64,000 nt of DNA from NCBI RefSeq assembly GCF_013410545.1, contig NZ_JACCFV010000001.1, forward strand, positions 3,906,001 through 3,970,000, written 5' to 3'. Shown here in pieces: positions 9,519-13,971 of the stretch. The notes below the pieces were generated by a model that did no database searches, was not told where the DNA came from, and was given only the letters and a program-made list of their open reading frames with translations. How positions within the stretch are numbered: the stretch's first letter is position 1; each line of letters begins with the position of its first letter. The DNA is from Pseudoclavibacter chungangensis (lineage in GTDB: Bacteria > Actinomycetota > Actinomycetes > Actinomycetales > Microbacteriaceae). The translations under genes and the position numbers were made by a program.

Positions 9519-9617
9519 GGTCGCCCTCCGTTCGGCGGCCGGTTCACGCGGAACGGCACGCTGGCTGCGCCGGACGGCGGGTTCGCCGCGGCGCAGCCCA
9601 TCGTACGAGCACGGCCC

Positions 9618-9722
9618 GCGACGCCCCGCGAGTCCCACCCGCGACGCCCCGCGAGTCCCGCCCGCGACGCCCCGCGAGTCCCGCCCGCGACGCCCCGCGA
9701 GTCCCGCCCGCGACGCCCCGCG
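9618..9722. repeat. 23-bp tandem repeat, about five copies
   Basis: Units beginning GCGACGCCCC start at 9618, 9641, 9664, 9687 and 9710, an exact 23-base period; the last unit degenerates after 13 bases, and a partial copy follows at ~9730. The array lies in the 400-base gap between the 112-aa gene and the Asp23 operon terminus. There are no spacers between units. Confidence 0.9.
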
Positions 9723-9792
9723 CTGGACCCGCGAGTCCCTCCCCGAGCCGCAGCTGCGAGGGCTCCCCGCGACCCTTGTCCGGCGATAGAAA

Positions 9793-9839
9793 GCCGGGTT
9801 GTTGCTACCGGGCCCCGGGCCCGGTAGCAACAACCCGGC
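9793..9839. terminator. Long palindrome, family 1 copy 1 (probable terminator of the Asp23 operon)
   Basis: Two perfectly complementary 23-base arms surround one central base (9816). The right flank reads CCTTTTT, giving a T-tract in the + direction; leftwards the flank is CTTTCTATC. It lies 80 bases beyond the stop of the last leftward Asp23-operon gene. The core of the arms (CCGGGTTGTTGCTACCGGGC) recurs at 53025-53081, so it is a dispersed element as well as a likely hairpin terminator. Confidence 0.75.
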
Positions 9840-9917: not shown

Positions 9918-10532
9918 TCAGTCGACCCGGCGCTGCTCGCTTGCGAACTTCGTCCGCAAGCTCGAGTGGATCGTGATGATCGCCGGCGCGCCCGGGCCCG
10001 TGAGCTTCTCGAGCCCGTCGAGCAACCGGTCGAGCGTGCCGACGACCTCGTCGGGCGGGGTCGACTGCCGTGGCGTGACCGCGACCTGCAGCACCTCCGT
10101 CCCGCGCACGTCGCGGAGCCCCACGTGGGATGACAGGATCTCGTCGCGCGACCCGAGCGCCTGCCGCAGCGCATCGGACGAGAACGCGTCCGAGACGACG
10201 ACCCGGCCCAGCGGATTGTCGTACCCGACACCGCGTTCGCGCGGCCGCGAACTCCTCGTCACGACCCGGATCGGGAGCGCGAGCAGGAGCACCACGAGCA
10301 CGACGATCACGGCGAACAGCCCGACCTCGAGCCACGTCACGGCCGAGTCGCCGATGCGGGACGCCGACTCGGCAGCGGCGAGCCAATCGCGCGCGGCCGT
10401 CGTGCCCTGCGTCCAGAGACGACCGAACTCGGGAACGTACAGCGCGGCGAGCGTGGCCGCCCCGCCGGCGAGCAGCGCGAGTCCGAAGACCCCCACGAGC
10501 AGGCGGTTGAGCCCACGGTTCGTGTTGTTCAT
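9918..10532 (-). CDS. Two-TM membrane protein of the Asp23 locus, AmaP-like
   Basis: 204 aa. Hydrophobic helices at ~11-33 and ~68-90 flank a short extracytoplasmic loop; the remaining ~110 residues are cytoplasmic and show the alternating strand/helix pattern of Asp23-type domains (VLQVAVTPRQSTPPDEV, then a helix, then AIITIHSSL). In Gram-positive bacteria AmaP is the membrane anchor for Asp23, and position and topology suggest the same here. The start has GGGGGAG upstream. It is the last gene of the leftward operon, 2 bases after the preceding stop. Function is inferred from context. Confidence 0.75.
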   Translation of the reverse strand: MNNTNRGLNRLLVGVFGLALLAGGAATLAALYVPEFGRLWTQGTTAARDWLAAAESASRIGDSAVTWLEVGLFAVIVVLVVLLLALPIRVVTRSSRPRERGVGYDNPLGRVVVSDAFSSDALRQALGSRDEILSSHVGLRDVRGTEVLQVAVTPRQSTPPDEVVGTLDRLLDGLEKLTGPGAPAIITIHSSLRTKFASEQRRVD

Positions 10533-10534
10533 CG

Positions 10535-11104
10535 TCACTCCCCCTTCTCTGCGACGCGCACCGAGGTGCGCGGGCGTGGCGTGACGCCGTAGCGCGACAA
10601 CTCGCCCTCGGCGATCTTCCGCACCACCGCTCGGTCCACGGGCAAACCCGCCTCGGGGCTCACCCGCACGTCGACCGTGCGGTGCCCGACCCCGACGACG
10701 ACCGAGGACGGTTCGAGCGAGAGCTCCTCCGCCAGGTGCCGAGCGAGTGCCGACGCGATGACGCCGTTGTCGGCGATCACGCCGCGCGTCCCGCACGTGA
10801 GCGCGTGACGCGGACGCTTCCCCGGCGTCACCGCCAGGACGACGAACACGAGACCGATCACGACGGCCGCCACGGCGACGCCGGGTACCCACGGTGCGGG
10901 TTCGGTGGGCAGTGCCACGATGCCGTCGAGGACCGGTCCGGGCGACCCGAGGAGCGCCGTGCGACCGAGGATGCGGAGCACGAGCTCGACCGCGACCCAC
11001 ACGAGGGCGGCGACGAGCAGCACGACGACGACGGTCATCGCGACGCTCCGCGGCGAGGTCAGCTCCCGGCGGACGACGCGTCGGACGGAACCTTCGGTGC
11101 TCAT
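10535..11104 (-). CDS. DUF6286-like membrane protein of the Asp23 locus
   Basis: 189 aa with hydrophobic helices at ~21-45 and ~73-93 and a C-terminal cytoplasmic domain. That domain begins GVIADNGVIASALARHL and ends with a VRV strand, the same strand-helix-strand layout as Asp23. The start overlaps the upstream stop (ATGA) and the next gene begins 2 bases after its stop, so all are co-translated. Likely a second membrane-anchored partner of the Asp23 protein. DUF6286 membership is from memory of the family and should be confirmed by HMM search. Confidence 0.75.
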   Translation of the reverse strand: MSTEGSVRRVVRRELTSPRSVAMTVVVVLLVAALVWVAVELVLRILGRTALLGSPGPVLDGIVALPTEPAPWVPGVAVAAVVIGLVFVVLAVTPGKRPRHALTCGTRGVIADNGVIASALARHLAEELSLEPSSVVVGVGHRTVDVRVSPEAGLPVDRAVVRKIAEGELSRYGVTPRPRTSVRVAEKGE

Positions 11105-11493
11105 CTGACCCTCCTCCGTGTGCTGACCTTCGCGCCGTCGATGCGGATCTCGACGCGGCCGATGCCCCGTCCGAGGAGCGTCTCGAGGCGGTCACGGAGC
11201 TCGATCTGGATCGCCGCGGCCCGCTCGGCGACGGGAACGGCTGCCGCGACGGCGGCCTCGTCGTCGAGATCCGGGACCGGGAACGGCGAGCGGATCTGCA
11301 GCGCGAGATCCCCCCGATAGCGCCCGAGTCGGGCCGTCACATCGCCGATGCCGACGCCGATGGCCTCGGCGGACGCCGCTTCGGCGACCCGACGGAGCAC
11401 ACGCTCCTGGACGGTGGTGCGACCGGCGGGCTCGGCCCGGCCGTCCGCCTTCGGGACGGCGTCGGCGGGCGGGACGCCCTGACGCGCGTCCAT
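11101..11493 (-). CDS. Divergent Asp23-like soluble protein
   Basis: 130 aa with no membrane segment. Residues ~30-125 show a helix (VQERVLRRVAEAASAEAIG), then strands (DLALQIRSPFPVP), a long helix ending RDRLETLLGRG and a final IGRVEIRIDGAKV strand, the order of elements in Asp23/Gls24. The match to the main Asp23 protein of this operon is weak but collinear. The ATG overlaps the TAA of the gene before it (TAATG) and its TGA overlaps the ATG of the next. Confidence 0.7.
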   Translation of the reverse strand: MDARQGVPPADAVPKADGRAEPAGRTTVQERVLRRVAEAASAEAIGVGIGDVTARLGRYRGDLALQIRSPFPVPDLDDEAAVAAAVPVAERAAAIQIELRDRLETLLGRGIGRVEIRIDGAKVSTRRRVR

Positions 11494-11681
11494 TACGACG
11501 TACGCCGACCGGTGAACGCGTTCACGATCGCACGCAGGTCGAGCTTGCCGGAGGCGAAGCGTCCGACGAGCCCGCCGATGATCGCGAACACGGCCGCGAG
11601 GAGGAATCCCCAGAACCCGAACTGGAGCGCGGCGAGGGCGAGGAGGACGCCGACGAGCGTCCCGAAGGCGGTCGTGCTCAT
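11493..11681 (-). CDS. Small two-helix membrane protein, DUF2273-like
   Basis: 62 aa, almost entirely two hydrophobic helices (~5-21 and ~24-41) joined by a Gly-rich turn, then a basic tail. Small proteins of this kind (DUF2273) commonly sit beside Asp23 and AmaP in Gram-positive envelope-stress operons. It overlaps both neighbours by 1-4 bases. Role as a membrane component of an Asp23 complex is inferred from gene neighbourhood. Confidence 0.75.
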   Translation of the reverse strand: MSTTAFGTLVGVLLALAALQFGFWGFLLAAVFAIIGGLVGRFASGKLDLRAIVNAFTGRRTS

Positions 11682-12193
11682 GAGACGCGCGACTCGTTGT
11701 GGTCGTTGTCGTCGTCGACGTTGGGCAGGTGCACGTCGTCGACGGCGATGTTGACCTCGACGACCTCGAGGCCGACGAGCTGCGTGATCGCGCGGGTGAC
11801 GGCGGCACGGACCTCGGCCGCGACGGCCTGGATGGGCGCCGGGTACTCCACCACGAGGGTGATGTCGACCGCCGCCTGCGTCTCGCCGACCTCGACCTTG
11901 ACGCCCTGCGTGAGGTCGGTCGCGTTGATCGCGTCGCGGATCGCGCCGAGGGTCCGTGCGCCGCCGCCGCCGAGGGCGTAGACGCCGTTGACCTCGCGCG
12001 CGGCGATGCCGGCGACCTTCGCGACGACCCCCTCGGCGATCGTCGTGCTGCCGGTCCCGTCGGCACGGCTCGCGTCGGTCACGGTGACCCGCGATCCGCG
12101 GTCGACCCGGTCGACGCGCGAGGCGGGTGCCGCCGGGGTGTGGGTGCCGGCTTCGACGCCGGCGTTGCTCGTGGTGAGATCCTGCTCGGTCAT
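11678..12193 (-). CDS. Asp23/Gls24-family envelope stress protein
   Basis: 171 aa. After a ~45-residue polar N-terminal tail comes the Asp23 domain: STTIAEGVVAKVAGIAAREV, NGVYALGGG, VDITLVVEYPAPIQAV, then a helix and VVEVNIAVDDVHLP, followed by a His/Asp/Asn-rich end. Family proteins are abundant, soluble, envelope-associated and induced by cell-wall or alkaline stress. It is the first gene of the leftward five-gene operon and has a good GAGGGAG ribosome site. It is divergently transcribed from an ECF-type sigma factor 144 bases away. Confidence 0.93.
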   Translation of the reverse strand: MTEQDLTTSNAGVEAGTHTPAAPASRVDRVDRGSRVTVTDASRADGTGSTTIAEGVVAKVAGIAAREVNGVYALGGGGARTLGAIRDAINATDLTQGVKVEVGETQAAVDITLVVEYPAPIQAVAAEVRAAVTRAITQLVGLEVVEVNIAVDDVHLPNVDDDNDHNESRVS

Positions 12194-12337
12194 GATGACT
12201 CCCTCAGGTCGTGACGTGGATTCCGACGCGGGACTCAGTGCGGTCCCGCACGGGAGCGTTATGGTCGCTCACACATAAGACGCCCGGAGGGGCGCATTCG
12301 TCACGAAGAAGTTTCGGGAGATGTTTCGGGAGGCATC
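12194..12337. promoter_or_regulatory. Divergent promoter region of the Asp23 operon and the sigma-factor operon
   Basis: This 144-base gap must hold the promoters of both operons. A 9-base direct repeat, GTTTCGGGA, lies at 12311-12319 and 12323-12331, immediately before the sigma gene; the second copy runs into its GGGAGG ribosome site. No unambiguous -35/-10 pair could be picked by eye. Autoregulation by the sigma factor is plausible but not shown. Confidence 0.5.
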
Positions 12338-12910
12338 GTGACGTCGACGGACGAGCTCGGAGCGGGCACCGAGGTGCCCGTGAGCGACGCGATCCTCGTC
12401 GCTCGTTCTCTCGATCAGGATCCGGATGCGTTCGGGGAACTCGTGCGACGCCACGCCCCGCTCATGCGCGCGTACGTCGCCCGCATCGTCGGCTCGAGGG
12501 CCGACGCGGACGACGTCGTGCAGAACGCGTTCATCGTCGCGTGGCGAAAACTCGACACCCTCCGCGACCCGTCGGCCGTGCGCGCGTGGTTCATGCGGAT
12601 CGCGAGCCACGAGGCGACGACGTTCGTGCGGCGGCGGCCCGTGCCCGTCCCGCTCGACACCGTCGAACCCGTCGCGCCCGCAGCCGCCTCGCCCGACGAC
12701 TCGGCGATCCGTTCCGCGCAGCTCGAAGCCCTCGCACGGGCCCTCGACTCGTTGCCCGAGACGCAGCGGCGGTGCTGGCTGCTGCGGGAGGGTGCGGGGC
12801 TCAGCTACGACGAGATCGGGCAGGAGCTCGGGCTCCCCGCGAGCACCGTGCGCGGGAGTCTCGCGCGGGCACGAACCAGCATCACCGTCCGGATGGAGGA
12901 ATGGCGATGA
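12338..12910 (+). CDS. ECF-type RNA polymerase sigma-70 factor
   Basis: 190 aa. Region 2 spans ~25-95 (DAFGELVRRHAPLMRAYVARIVG, ADDVVQNAFIVAWRKLD) and region 4 ~125-180 (LPETQRRCWLLREGAGLSYDEIGQELG, then TVRGSLARAR), with no region 1.1 or region 3, as in group 4 sigma factors. It starts with GTG after GGGAGG. The gene overlaps the next one by four bases. It heads a three-gene operon divergent from the Asp23 operon, which is the obvious candidate target. Confidence 0.92.
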   Translation: MTSTDELGAGTEVPVSDAILVARSLDQDPDAFGELVRRHAPLMRAYVARIVGSRADADDVVQNAFIVAWRKLDTLRDPSAVRAWFMRIASHEATTFVRRRPVPVPLDTVEPVAPAAASPDDSAIRSAQLEALARALDSLPETQRRCWLLREGAGLSYDEIGQELGLPASTVRGSLARARTSITVRMEEWR

Positions 12911-13515
12911 CCACCGAACAGCCGCAACTCGAGTGCGGCGCGACCCTCGAGGAGCTCAGCGAGTACCTCGAATCGGGTCGGACGCCGAGGGACGAACGCA
13001 TCGAGTCGTGTCCCGAGTGCCTCAACGCGCTCGACTCGCTCGAGAACGTCTTGAGGCTCTCACAGGAGCTCTTGGAGTCGGATGCGGAGCAACTGCCCGA
13101 GCCGTCGCGCGCGTGGTTCGACGACATCCGCGACACGATCGTGCGGGAGTTGCGCCCGGGCCGGGAGCTGCCGCTGCATCACCCGGATCCGCGCGTCGAG
13201 CTGTCGATCTCGGAGGGTGCGGTGCACGCGATGCTGCGTGCGACGGGCGATGCGGTCGACGGGGTGTTCGTGGCACGCAGCGACCTCGTCGGCGACGTCG
13301 AGACGCCCGGCGCGCCGATCCGCGTCGAATTGACGGCGAGTGTCGTGTGGCCGAGCGACGTGCGGGCGATCACCGAGCGTCTGCGCGCGGCGGTCTTCGC
13401 CGCGCTCGAGCAGCACACCGAGCTGCGGGTCGAGGCCGTCGACATCGTGATCGCCGACGTGCACGGCCCGGTGTCACGGCCCGGCGGGTCGATCGTGGAG
13501 GAGGGGGAGCGATGA
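12907..13515 (+). CDS. Anti-sigma-like zinc-finger protein fused to an Asp23-like domain
   Basis: 202 aa. The N-terminal ~40 residues hold C10 and a C35-P-E-C38 pair after a helix, resembling a zinc-binding anti-sigma module, although the canonical His is not obvious. A helical stretch follows (~40-85). Residues ~98-187 match the Asp23 domain encoded 0.7 kb away: VELSISEGAVHAML, DGVFVA, IRVELTASVVWPSDV, then VEAVDIVIADVHGP. There is no transmembrane segment. ATG 12907 is chosen over 12901 because GGAGGA ends too close to the latter. Its overlap with the sigma gene strongly suggests it is the cognate anti-sigma factor. Confidence 0.78.
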   Translation: MTTEQPQLECGATLEELSEYLESGRTPRDERIESCPECLNALDSLENVLRLSQELLESDAEQLPEPSRAWFDDIRDTIVRELRPGRELPLHHPDPRVELSISEGAVHAMLRATGDAVDGVFVARSDLVGDVETPGAPIRVELTASVVWPSDVRAITERLRAAVFAALEQHTELRVEAVDIVIADVHGPVSRPGGSIVEEGER

Positions 13516-13820
13516 CGATTCCGGGAACGCCGCAGGTGCGGCTGGACGAACTGCTCGTGACCGTGCCGGGCGTGGTCGCGGTGTATCCGCAGGCGGGCGT
13601 GCGCGCCGTGGTCGCCTCCGTCACATGGCTCGCCGCGACCGTCACGGGACGCGACGTGCGCGAGGAGGACGCGGTCACGCGATCACCCGAGGCCGTGAGC
13701 GCGACGATCGCGACGAGCCGGGGCGCGCGCAGCCCCGACGTCGCTCGCGCGGCCGCCGACGCGCTGCTCGCCGCGGCACCGTCGGAGCGCGTGAAGCTCA
13801 GGGTCGCTCGCATCACGTGA
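13512..13820 (+). CDS. Small protein of the sigma/Asp23 operon, possibly Asp23-related
   Basis: 102 aa, soluble, third gene of the operon (ATGA overlap). It contains LVTVPGVVAVYPQ near the N-terminus and ends with a helix plus VKLRVARIT strand. The layout, including an ATIATSRG strand in the middle, loosely follows Asp23 (GVYAL strand, ITLVVEY strand, helix, VNIAV strand). That relation is a weak visual match only. Probably a further partner of the Asp23 network; biochemical role unknown. Confidence 0.65.
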   Translation: MTIPGTPQVRLDELLVTVPGVVAVYPQAGVRAVVASVTWLAATVTGRDVREEDAVTRSPEAVSATIATSRGARSPDVARAAADALLAAAPSERVKLRVARIT

Positions 13821-13869
13821 CGCGGCGGCCGCGAGCCGCCGCGAGTTCGCGCAGGCCGATCTCACGCAG

Positions 13870-13936
13870 GCCGCGTTCCGGGTGGTTCTCGGGGTTCCGG
13901 GGCACCCGGAACCCCGAGAACCACCCGGAACGCGGC
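13870..13936. repeat. Long palindrome, family 2 copy A
   Basis: 32-base complementary arms with a 3-base loop (GCA at 13902-13904). The arm core, TTCCGGGTGGTTCTCGGGG, is shared with copies at 24599 and 26809. It lies 50 bases after the last gene of the sigma operon. No T-tract follows it, but the very stable stem could stop transcription; it could also be a dispersed repetitive element. Confidence 0.85.
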
Positions 13937-13971
13937 GAGCGGGGGCTGTGACGTCCTCGCGGGGCGGGCGG

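Follow-up and report, generated by a model that had tools for sequence, protein, structure and literature searches.

Extracytoplasmic function (ECF) sigma factors of groups ECF286 and ECF292 adjoin soluble Asp23-family proteins that have been predicted, without experimental data, to act as their anti-sigma factors (PMC8999054). The passage on the two groups in that paper names neither an anti-sigma domain nor a target promoter, and it describes neither a regulon nor a mechanism. A comparable arrangement is described here from Pseudoclavibacter chungangensis, at positions 9918 to 13820 of a 64,000-nucleotide stretch of contig NZ_JACCFV010000001.1 (the window). Reading of the open reading frames (ORFs) confirmed that the locus is composed of eight adjacent or overlapping ORFs in two divergent operons. 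The rightward operon encodes an ECF sigma factor, a putative anti-sigma factor, and a third small protein, and the leftward operon encodes the canonical Asp23 and four further proteins (Table 1). As in ECF286 and ECF292, an ECF sigma factor gene stands beside the gene of a soluble Asp23-family protein for which an anti-sigma role is predicted; the likeness is one of gene neighbourhood and not of group models. The best reading of this locus is an ECF sigma factor that would drive an Asp23 stress regulon. In its full form this reading is considered probable: an anti-sigma factor fused to an Asp23 domain would hold the sigma factor, the released sigma factor would drive the Asp23 operon, and the Asp23 domain would be the input. 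Asp23-family anti-sigma factors are already known as a prediction for ECF286 and ECF292, and what is new is the domain fusion, the candidate promoter, the candidate regulon, and the co-inheritance. Judged by titles, abstract openings, and passages, none of the papers listed in literature searches, which did not reach the original ECF classification paper, describes the fusion, the promoter, or the regulon. Because of the earlier prediction, and because databases name many relatives Asp23 or Gls24, the system is less new than the preliminary description of this DNA had supposed.

The Staphylococcus aureus Asp23 operon belongs to the SigB regulon, and a DUF2273 protein is also part of the staphylococcal Asp23-AmaP operon. 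Among the targets of the SigB-type general stress regulon of Bacillales are asp23 and csbD, an overlap with the Asp23 and CsbD genes considered here. In contrast to Bacillales, an ECF sigma factor with a one-step anti-sigma factor would replace the partner-switching module, and the gene set looks small. The staphylococcal operon shares with this locus the presence of Asp23 and an AmaP-like anchor in one operon (for S. aureus AmaP, PMC6954212). The present locus differs in encoding extra Asp23-like proteins and a local ECF/anti-sigma pair that is inherited together with Asp23. Proteins of the Asp23/Gls24 type are widespread, and what they do at the molecular level has been called still unclear (PMC6954212). 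With a dedicated sigma/anti-sigma pair and a candidate promoter, a single promoter could show what the Asp23 layer reports on.

The putative anti-sigma factor is composed of two halves. PF03780 matches its residues 135-186 below the cut-off (E=1.5e-4; 22.6 vs 28 bits) and was found in all 23 proteins of the family that were scanned, the window protein included (best E=5.4e-7). A homologue, L095, exceeds the cut-off with 34.1 bits. Profile-profile comparison of the family with 64 Asp23 sequences gave a probability of 98.9, E=1.8e-17, and a score of 93.4, where the maximum among 15 column-shuffled controls was 16.8. AlphaFold models a beta-alpha-beta-beta-alpha-beta domain at residues 99-186, with a block-mean confidence (pLDDT) of 93-97 over residues 91-180 and 84 over residues 181-190. 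By profile and by model, then, the C-terminal half is an Asp23 domain, which agrees with the collinear alignment of residues ~98-187 in the preliminary description.

The N-terminal half is modelled with helices at residues 14-22, 30-33, 36-62, and 68-82, as in the bundle of three to four helices that characterizes class I anti-sigma domains. It was compared by hhalign with 30 zf-HC2 domains from related genomes, several of which are near-identical. The 33 sequences with three cysteines gave a probability of 93.6 and a score of 41.4 (null maximum 13.7), the remaining 43 gave 63.9 and 29.2 (null maximum 10.9), and the Cys columns of the two families were aligned. As judged from these profiles, the N-terminal half is a class I (zf-HC2/ZAS-like) anti-sigma domain in which zinc is optional; class I domains often occur without the Hx3Cx2C motif, according to a passage of PMC7406223. 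The window protein has no hydrophobic segment of membrane strength (highest 19-residue mean 0.95), and the threshold of 1.6 is just passed by two of the 78 homologues. The earlier picture of an ECF-type sigma factor paired with a Cys-containing, anti-sigma-like protein that has no membrane helix is thereby upheld.

A helical N-terminal domain with C...CxxC, solubility, and a gene directly after that of the sigma factor are features shared with the soluble zinc anti-sigma factors of the RsrA/ChrR type. Here, however, the C-terminal half is an Asp23 domain, and C35 or C38 is missing in 39 of 76 aligned sequences. In one alternative, the cysteine/zinc domain would be the sensor and work as an RsrA-like thiol switch; the Asp23 half would only help to position or stabilise the protein, and Asp23 would be a mere target. 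All three of C10, C35, and C38 occur in 33 of the 76 sequences and C35 with C38 in 37, the distant relatives L082, L083, L085, and L086 carry C...HxxxCxxC or nearly so, and zinc domains are over-represented among soluble anti-sigma factors (PMC7406223). Yet the sigma factor gene directly precedes the anti-sigma gene in every locus, including those of the 39 sequences, and the loss of C35 or C38 in about half of the family means that a zinc or redox switch cannot be general. Moreover, the zinc histidine is replaced by arginine in the window protein, zinc may be purely structural (PMC7406223), and such a switch would account neither for the conservation of the Asp23 half nor for the joint inheritance with Asp23. 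A thiol switch as the sensor is therefore regarded as unlikely.

The database names Asp23 and Gls24 of many relatives, together with a Pfam scan that did not call zf-HC2 in the window protein, would also fit an Asp23-family structural protein or co-activator. The sigma factor would then be independent of it, and another sigma factor would read the Asp23 promoter. This is very unlikely, given the N-terminal match to 30 zf-HC2 domains with aligned Cys columns and the overlap of the anti-sigma start codon with the sigma stop codon by ATGA. The sigma factor gene, moreover, directly precedes this gene in 78 of 78 loci, and one Streptomyces relative is named an anti-sigma factor.

These 78 loci were picked by their anti-sigma gene and comprise 74 from a scan of genomes, three from further relatives, and the window (L001, a duplicate of the window, is excluded from locus counts). 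The alignments drew on 23 of 31 listed relatives (A1), 14 of the 31 with 27 of the 74 loci (A2), and 46 of 74 third-gene sequences (A3). The third gene follows the anti-sigma gene in 74 of the 78 loci, the remaining four being short or cut. Asp23 is present in 67 loci, and all five leftward gene types are present in 46. The placement of the Asp23 operon varies, as it is either divergent or co-directional downstream of the sigma operon. Among 199 Microbacteriaceae genomes, a full-length anti-sigma factor and a canonical Asp23 were found together in 72, each alone in one, and neither in 125 (Fisher p=2.5e-52). This p-value and those below are overstated because the genomes and the upstream windows are related; in the Fisher tests, 73 of 75 matches were counted as anti-sigma factors, the match of G077 being weak and that of G204 being to Asp23 only. 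Within the genera g1, g6, g17, g22, g43, and g72, one species has both proteins and another has neither, so that they are gained and lost together. Two distant families of the class also have the sigma factor with a full-length relative of the anti-sigma factor, in the five loci L082-L086, and so does another family of the order, in L095. The L082 anti-sigma factor has 493 relatives, and among the 120 matches listed the named ones belong to Streptomyces, once to Streptomycetaceae. In the sequenced genomes, the unit of sigma factor, anti-sigma factor, and third gene thus recurs across Microbacteriaceae and Streptomyces-type genomes, and the strong co-occurrence points to evolutionary coupling of the sigma/anti-sigma unit to Asp23.

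Upstream of Asp23 lies a promoter-like element, TGACGA-N15-CGTC. Of 66 distinct windows upstream of Asp23, 56 have it with at most one mismatch, and 25 of these show a perfect match. No other spacer between 11 and 19 exceeded 14 windows with up to one mismatch or one perfect window, and the antisense strand at spacer 15 gave two windows. Counts of upstream windows, of listed sites, and of CsbD proximity treat related sequences as separate, and the site list excludes L028 (a duplicate of L027) and the L074 site. Where the operons are co-directional, the element precedes Asp23 in eight of the nine loci shown (L061 is unclear); it stays with Asp23 and so belongs to it. In this genome, a longer form of the pattern has one perfect match, the site at 12276-12304 on the minus strand, none with one mismatch, and four with two mismatches, and the reversed pattern has three matches. 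A strict motif occurs in 31 of 73 genomes with the system vs 2 of 126 others (p=6e-14), and in both of these two the -10 is not CGTC. The reversed strict pattern gave three matches vs 45 sites; the strict pattern misses CGACC-type variants and one-mismatch forms. The element is a candidate ECF-like promoter preceding the leftward operon. The effect of the sigma factor on that operon, which the preliminary description had made a condition of its proposal, is supported, at the sequence level only, by this element, which points in the predicted direction.

The core of the element is palindromic (GACG-N16-CGTC), in the window and at other sites, and two copies face AraC-type genes (L115, L117). 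It might accordingly be taken for the operator of a dimeric regulator. Against this, the element is strongly one-sided to Asp23 (56 sense vs 2 antisense windows at spacer 15), its spacing is exact and lies in the -35/-10 range, and the bases flanking the core are asymmetric. The chance that it is an operator and not a promoter is put as slim.

Just past the -10 lies a short inverted repeat, close to where the Asp23 mRNA is expected to begin (Table 1). Stretches after the site had a mean folding z of -1.18 at 48 Asp23 sites and -1.36 at 18 other sites, vs +0.52 and +0.10, respectively, for stretches further downstream; the system-free regions L118 and L119 are not part of this test. An inverted repeat after the -10 recurs at other sites, with a sequence that differs by gene. 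A 5'-terminal stabilising hairpin is possibly common to the regulon. In the co-directional loci L011, L015, L021, and L022, a different conserved block, GCAAGAAGTT...G(G/A)TTAG, lies before the sigma factor gene and is perhaps the promoter of that gene.

In the proposed mechanism, the ECF sigma factor would be held by the soluble anti-sigma factor through a class I domain that is fused to the Asp23 domain. Once freed, the sigma factor would read TGACGA-N15-CGTC and activate the Asp23 operon, and in relatives it may activate further small stress genes as well, among them CsbD and GlsB/YeaQ-type genes. The proposal builds on the domain architecture, its conservation, the co-inheritance, and the promoter-like element with its attachment to Asp23, all of which are read from the DNA itself. 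The input would be the Asp23 domain of the anti-sigma factor, probably aided by the third Asp23-like protein. By docking on members of the Asp23 family in the membrane-bound network, this domain would let the switch report the state or amount of the network. From this arrangement we infer that the Asp23 domain senses Asp23 assembly, and it could read the amount of free versus assembled Asp23.

The sign of the feedback is less apparent, and a negative sign is preferred: plentiful unassembled Asp23 would keep the sigma factor held. The opposite sign, nearest to the wording of the preliminary description, would have Asp23 assemble at the membrane under envelope stress and pull the anti-sigma factor off the sigma factor through Asp23-Asp23 contacts, in a self-amplifying manner. 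The same architecture and co-inheritance fit such recruitment, as does S. aureus Asp23, which forms filaments and is anchored to the membrane by AmaP (PMC6954212). However, S. aureus reacts to the loss of asp23 or amaP with a cell wall stress response, as PMC6954212 relates from earlier work, and negative feedback fits this better; a self-amplifying loop would presumably need a separate brake. Positive recruitment is accordingly held to be improbable. The anti-sigma factor may go further and act as a decoy subunit, a truncated Asp23 with a sigma-binding domain that joins the membrane assembly. The cell would thereby count free against assembled Asp23, as an Actinomycetota-wide homeostat. This extension is tentative and somewhat less probable than its negation. 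If it is true, the sensor would be a paralogue of the polymer that it controls, and transcription of the whole assembly would be adjusted. More broadly, the part-Asp23 nature of the putative anti-sigma factor suggests that the cell measures the state of its Asp23 membrane lining with a copy of the lining's own building block.

The regulon may extend beyond Asp23. In 18 motif regions of system genomes that lie away from the Asp23 of the locus, CsbD is the first gene in six, with a GlsB/YeaQ-type gene next in three. The remaining regions have a DUF7882-type gene (three; one by Pfam and two by eye), a small membrane protein (two), Asp23 (one), a membrane protein followed by CsbD (one), an AraC-type gene (two), and other or unclear genes (three). 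Nearly half of the listed CsbD genes in system genomes (46/93) are within 6 kb of Asp23, 45 of them on the same strand. In Curtobacterium, which belongs to the same family, genes for Asp23/Gls24, GlsB/YeaQ, and CsbD are induced by desiccation, as are two unspecified sigma factor genes; part of these respond at every time point and the rest at lower water content only (PMC12029717). As far as the passage goes, these data are consistent with the predicted regulon. ECF sigma factors with Asp23 partners are suggested to be the Actinomycetota counterpart of the SigB Asp23/CsbD response, and desiccation is a candidate signal.

Side by side with these regions, the site in the Tessaracoccus locus (L068:5565-5904) precedes a GlsB/YeaQ-type gene (PF04226, 9e-11), which is followed by the sigma, anti-sigma, and third genes. 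As the site and the GlsB-type gene head the sigma operon there, the sigma factor might control its own operon in that genome. The site copies that face AraC-type genes (PF12833, 2.9e-20 in L115 and 1.9e-9 in L117) are near a sigma/anti-sigma locus in L115 and near Asp23 in L117.

Several observations weigh against the reading of an Asp23-coupled sigma factor regulon, besides the relatedness that inflates the p-values. For the anti-sigma factor, the zf-HC2 model of Pfam matches weakly and in 4 of 23 family proteins, and R31 takes the place of the zinc histidine in the window protein, so that the Hx3Cx2C motif is incomplete. For the promoter, 10 of the 66 Asp23 upstream windows have no site at up to one mismatch, the strict motif is absent from 42 of the 73 system genomes, and the scan of upstream windows found no clear copy in the direction of the sigma factor gene. 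The CsbD test is weak: among CsbD genes away from Asp23, a perfect site precedes 7 of 47 vs 1 of 53 in a control group that includes G077 and G204 (p=0.024), the one-mismatch test gave 8 vs 4 (p=0.22), and five of the seven perfect sites are those that prompted the idea. The only CsbD gene found in the genome of the window has no such motif, so the circuit there may reach no further than the Asp23 operon. A Streptomyces venezuelae Asp23/Gls24 gene falls after ethanol shock, according to a passage of PMC9769785. Two genomes also depart from the co-inheritance, G092 (L116) having the anti-sigma factor, motif, and CsbD with no detected Asp23, and G204 having Asp23 with no full anti-sigma factor; a gap in the assembly is possible in both.

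Table 1. Features of the Asp23 and sigma factor locus, in window coordinates.
Feature	Coordinates	Strand	Evidence
Terminator-like hairpin beyond the leftward operon	9793..9839	unspecified	Sequence
AmaP-like membrane anchor, 204 aa	9918..10532	-	NF033218 E=4.2e-4; hydrophobic ~8-34, ~60-95
DUF6286-like membrane protein, 189 aa	10535..11104	-	PF19803 E=5.7e-8; hydrophobic segments
Divergent soluble Asp23-like protein, 131 aa	11101..11496	-	Family profile comparison
DUF2273-like small two-helix membrane protein, 62 aa	11493..11681	-	PF10031 E=4.2e-5; hydrophobic 3-45
Canonical Asp23, 171 aa, first leftward gene	11678..12193	-	PF03780 E=3.4e-26, 92 bits
Inverted repeat GAGCG/CGCTC just past -10, near expected Asp23 mRNA 5' end	12254..12270	-	Sequence
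Promoter-like site of Asp23 operon, -35 GTGACGA 12298-12304, -10 CGTCTTA 12276-12282	12276..12304	-	Motif scans
ECF sigma factor, 190 aa, GTG start after GGGAGG	12338..12910	+	PF04542 3.8e-16, PF08281 2e-13, TIGR02937 9e-28
Putative anti-sigma factor: ZAS-like ~10-82 (C10, C35, C38) and Asp23 domain ~99-186	12907..13515	+	Pfam, AlphaFold, profile-profile
Third small Asp23-like protein, 102 aa	13512..13820	+	AlphaFold; L084 counterpart
Inverted repeat, 37-nt arms, beyond the rightward operon	13865..13941	unspecified	Sequence

The third protein, whose start codon overlaps the anti-sigma stop codon by ATGA, had been described as possibly similar in layout to Asp23. Its AlphaFold model runs alpha-beta-(helix)-beta-alpha-beta with a mean pLDDT of 81, an Asp23-like order of elements. 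Its nearest solved folds are mostly those of the anti-sigma C-terminus, namely CDF C-terminal domains. A bridge is provided by the protein at the third-gene position of L084, which matches PF03780 above the cut-off (E=9.4e-11, 42.5 bits) and also matches the third-gene model (25.4 bits), the Asp23 model (31.4 bits), and the anti-sigma model (24.7 bits). This bridge and the modelled order speak for an Asp23-like layout; on the other side, the Pfam scan of the window protein gave no match, and the profile-profile match of its family to Asp23 is weak (score 20.7, null maximum 12.6, probability 5.9).

In the leftward operon, the canonical Asp23, correctly recognized from the sequence alone, is the only above-cut-off Asp23 match in this genome, and among the eight products of the locus only it and the sigma factor pass curated cut-offs. 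The small two-helix membrane protein and the soluble Asp23-like protein of the preliminary description were likewise recovered. The former is DUF2273-like (23.9 vs 25.4 bits, under the PF10031 cut-off), and its gene is present in 48 of the 78 loci. The latter gave no Asp23 match in the Pfam scan and is Asp23-like by profile, as its family matches Asp23 with a probability of 79.8 and a score of 34.7 (null maximum 13.3). The DUF6286-like protein is slightly under the PF19803 cut-off (33.6 vs 35 bits), and the AmaP-like protein is far under the NF033218 equivalog cut-off (20.1 vs 55 bits). Evidence that the cytoplasmic ends of these two membrane proteins share the Asp23 layout is mixed and indirect. 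Direct comparison of the ends with Asp23 was not above the null, but the DUF6286 model matches one Streptomyces-type anti-sigma factor (E=6.2e-5) and the AmaP model matches the window Asp23 (E=1e-4), both below cut-off. The locus is bounded by the terminator-like hairpin on one side and the inverted repeat with 37-nt arms on the other. Just past the hairpin, at 9606-9743, a GC-rich 23-nt unit is repeated in tandem in ~5 copies.

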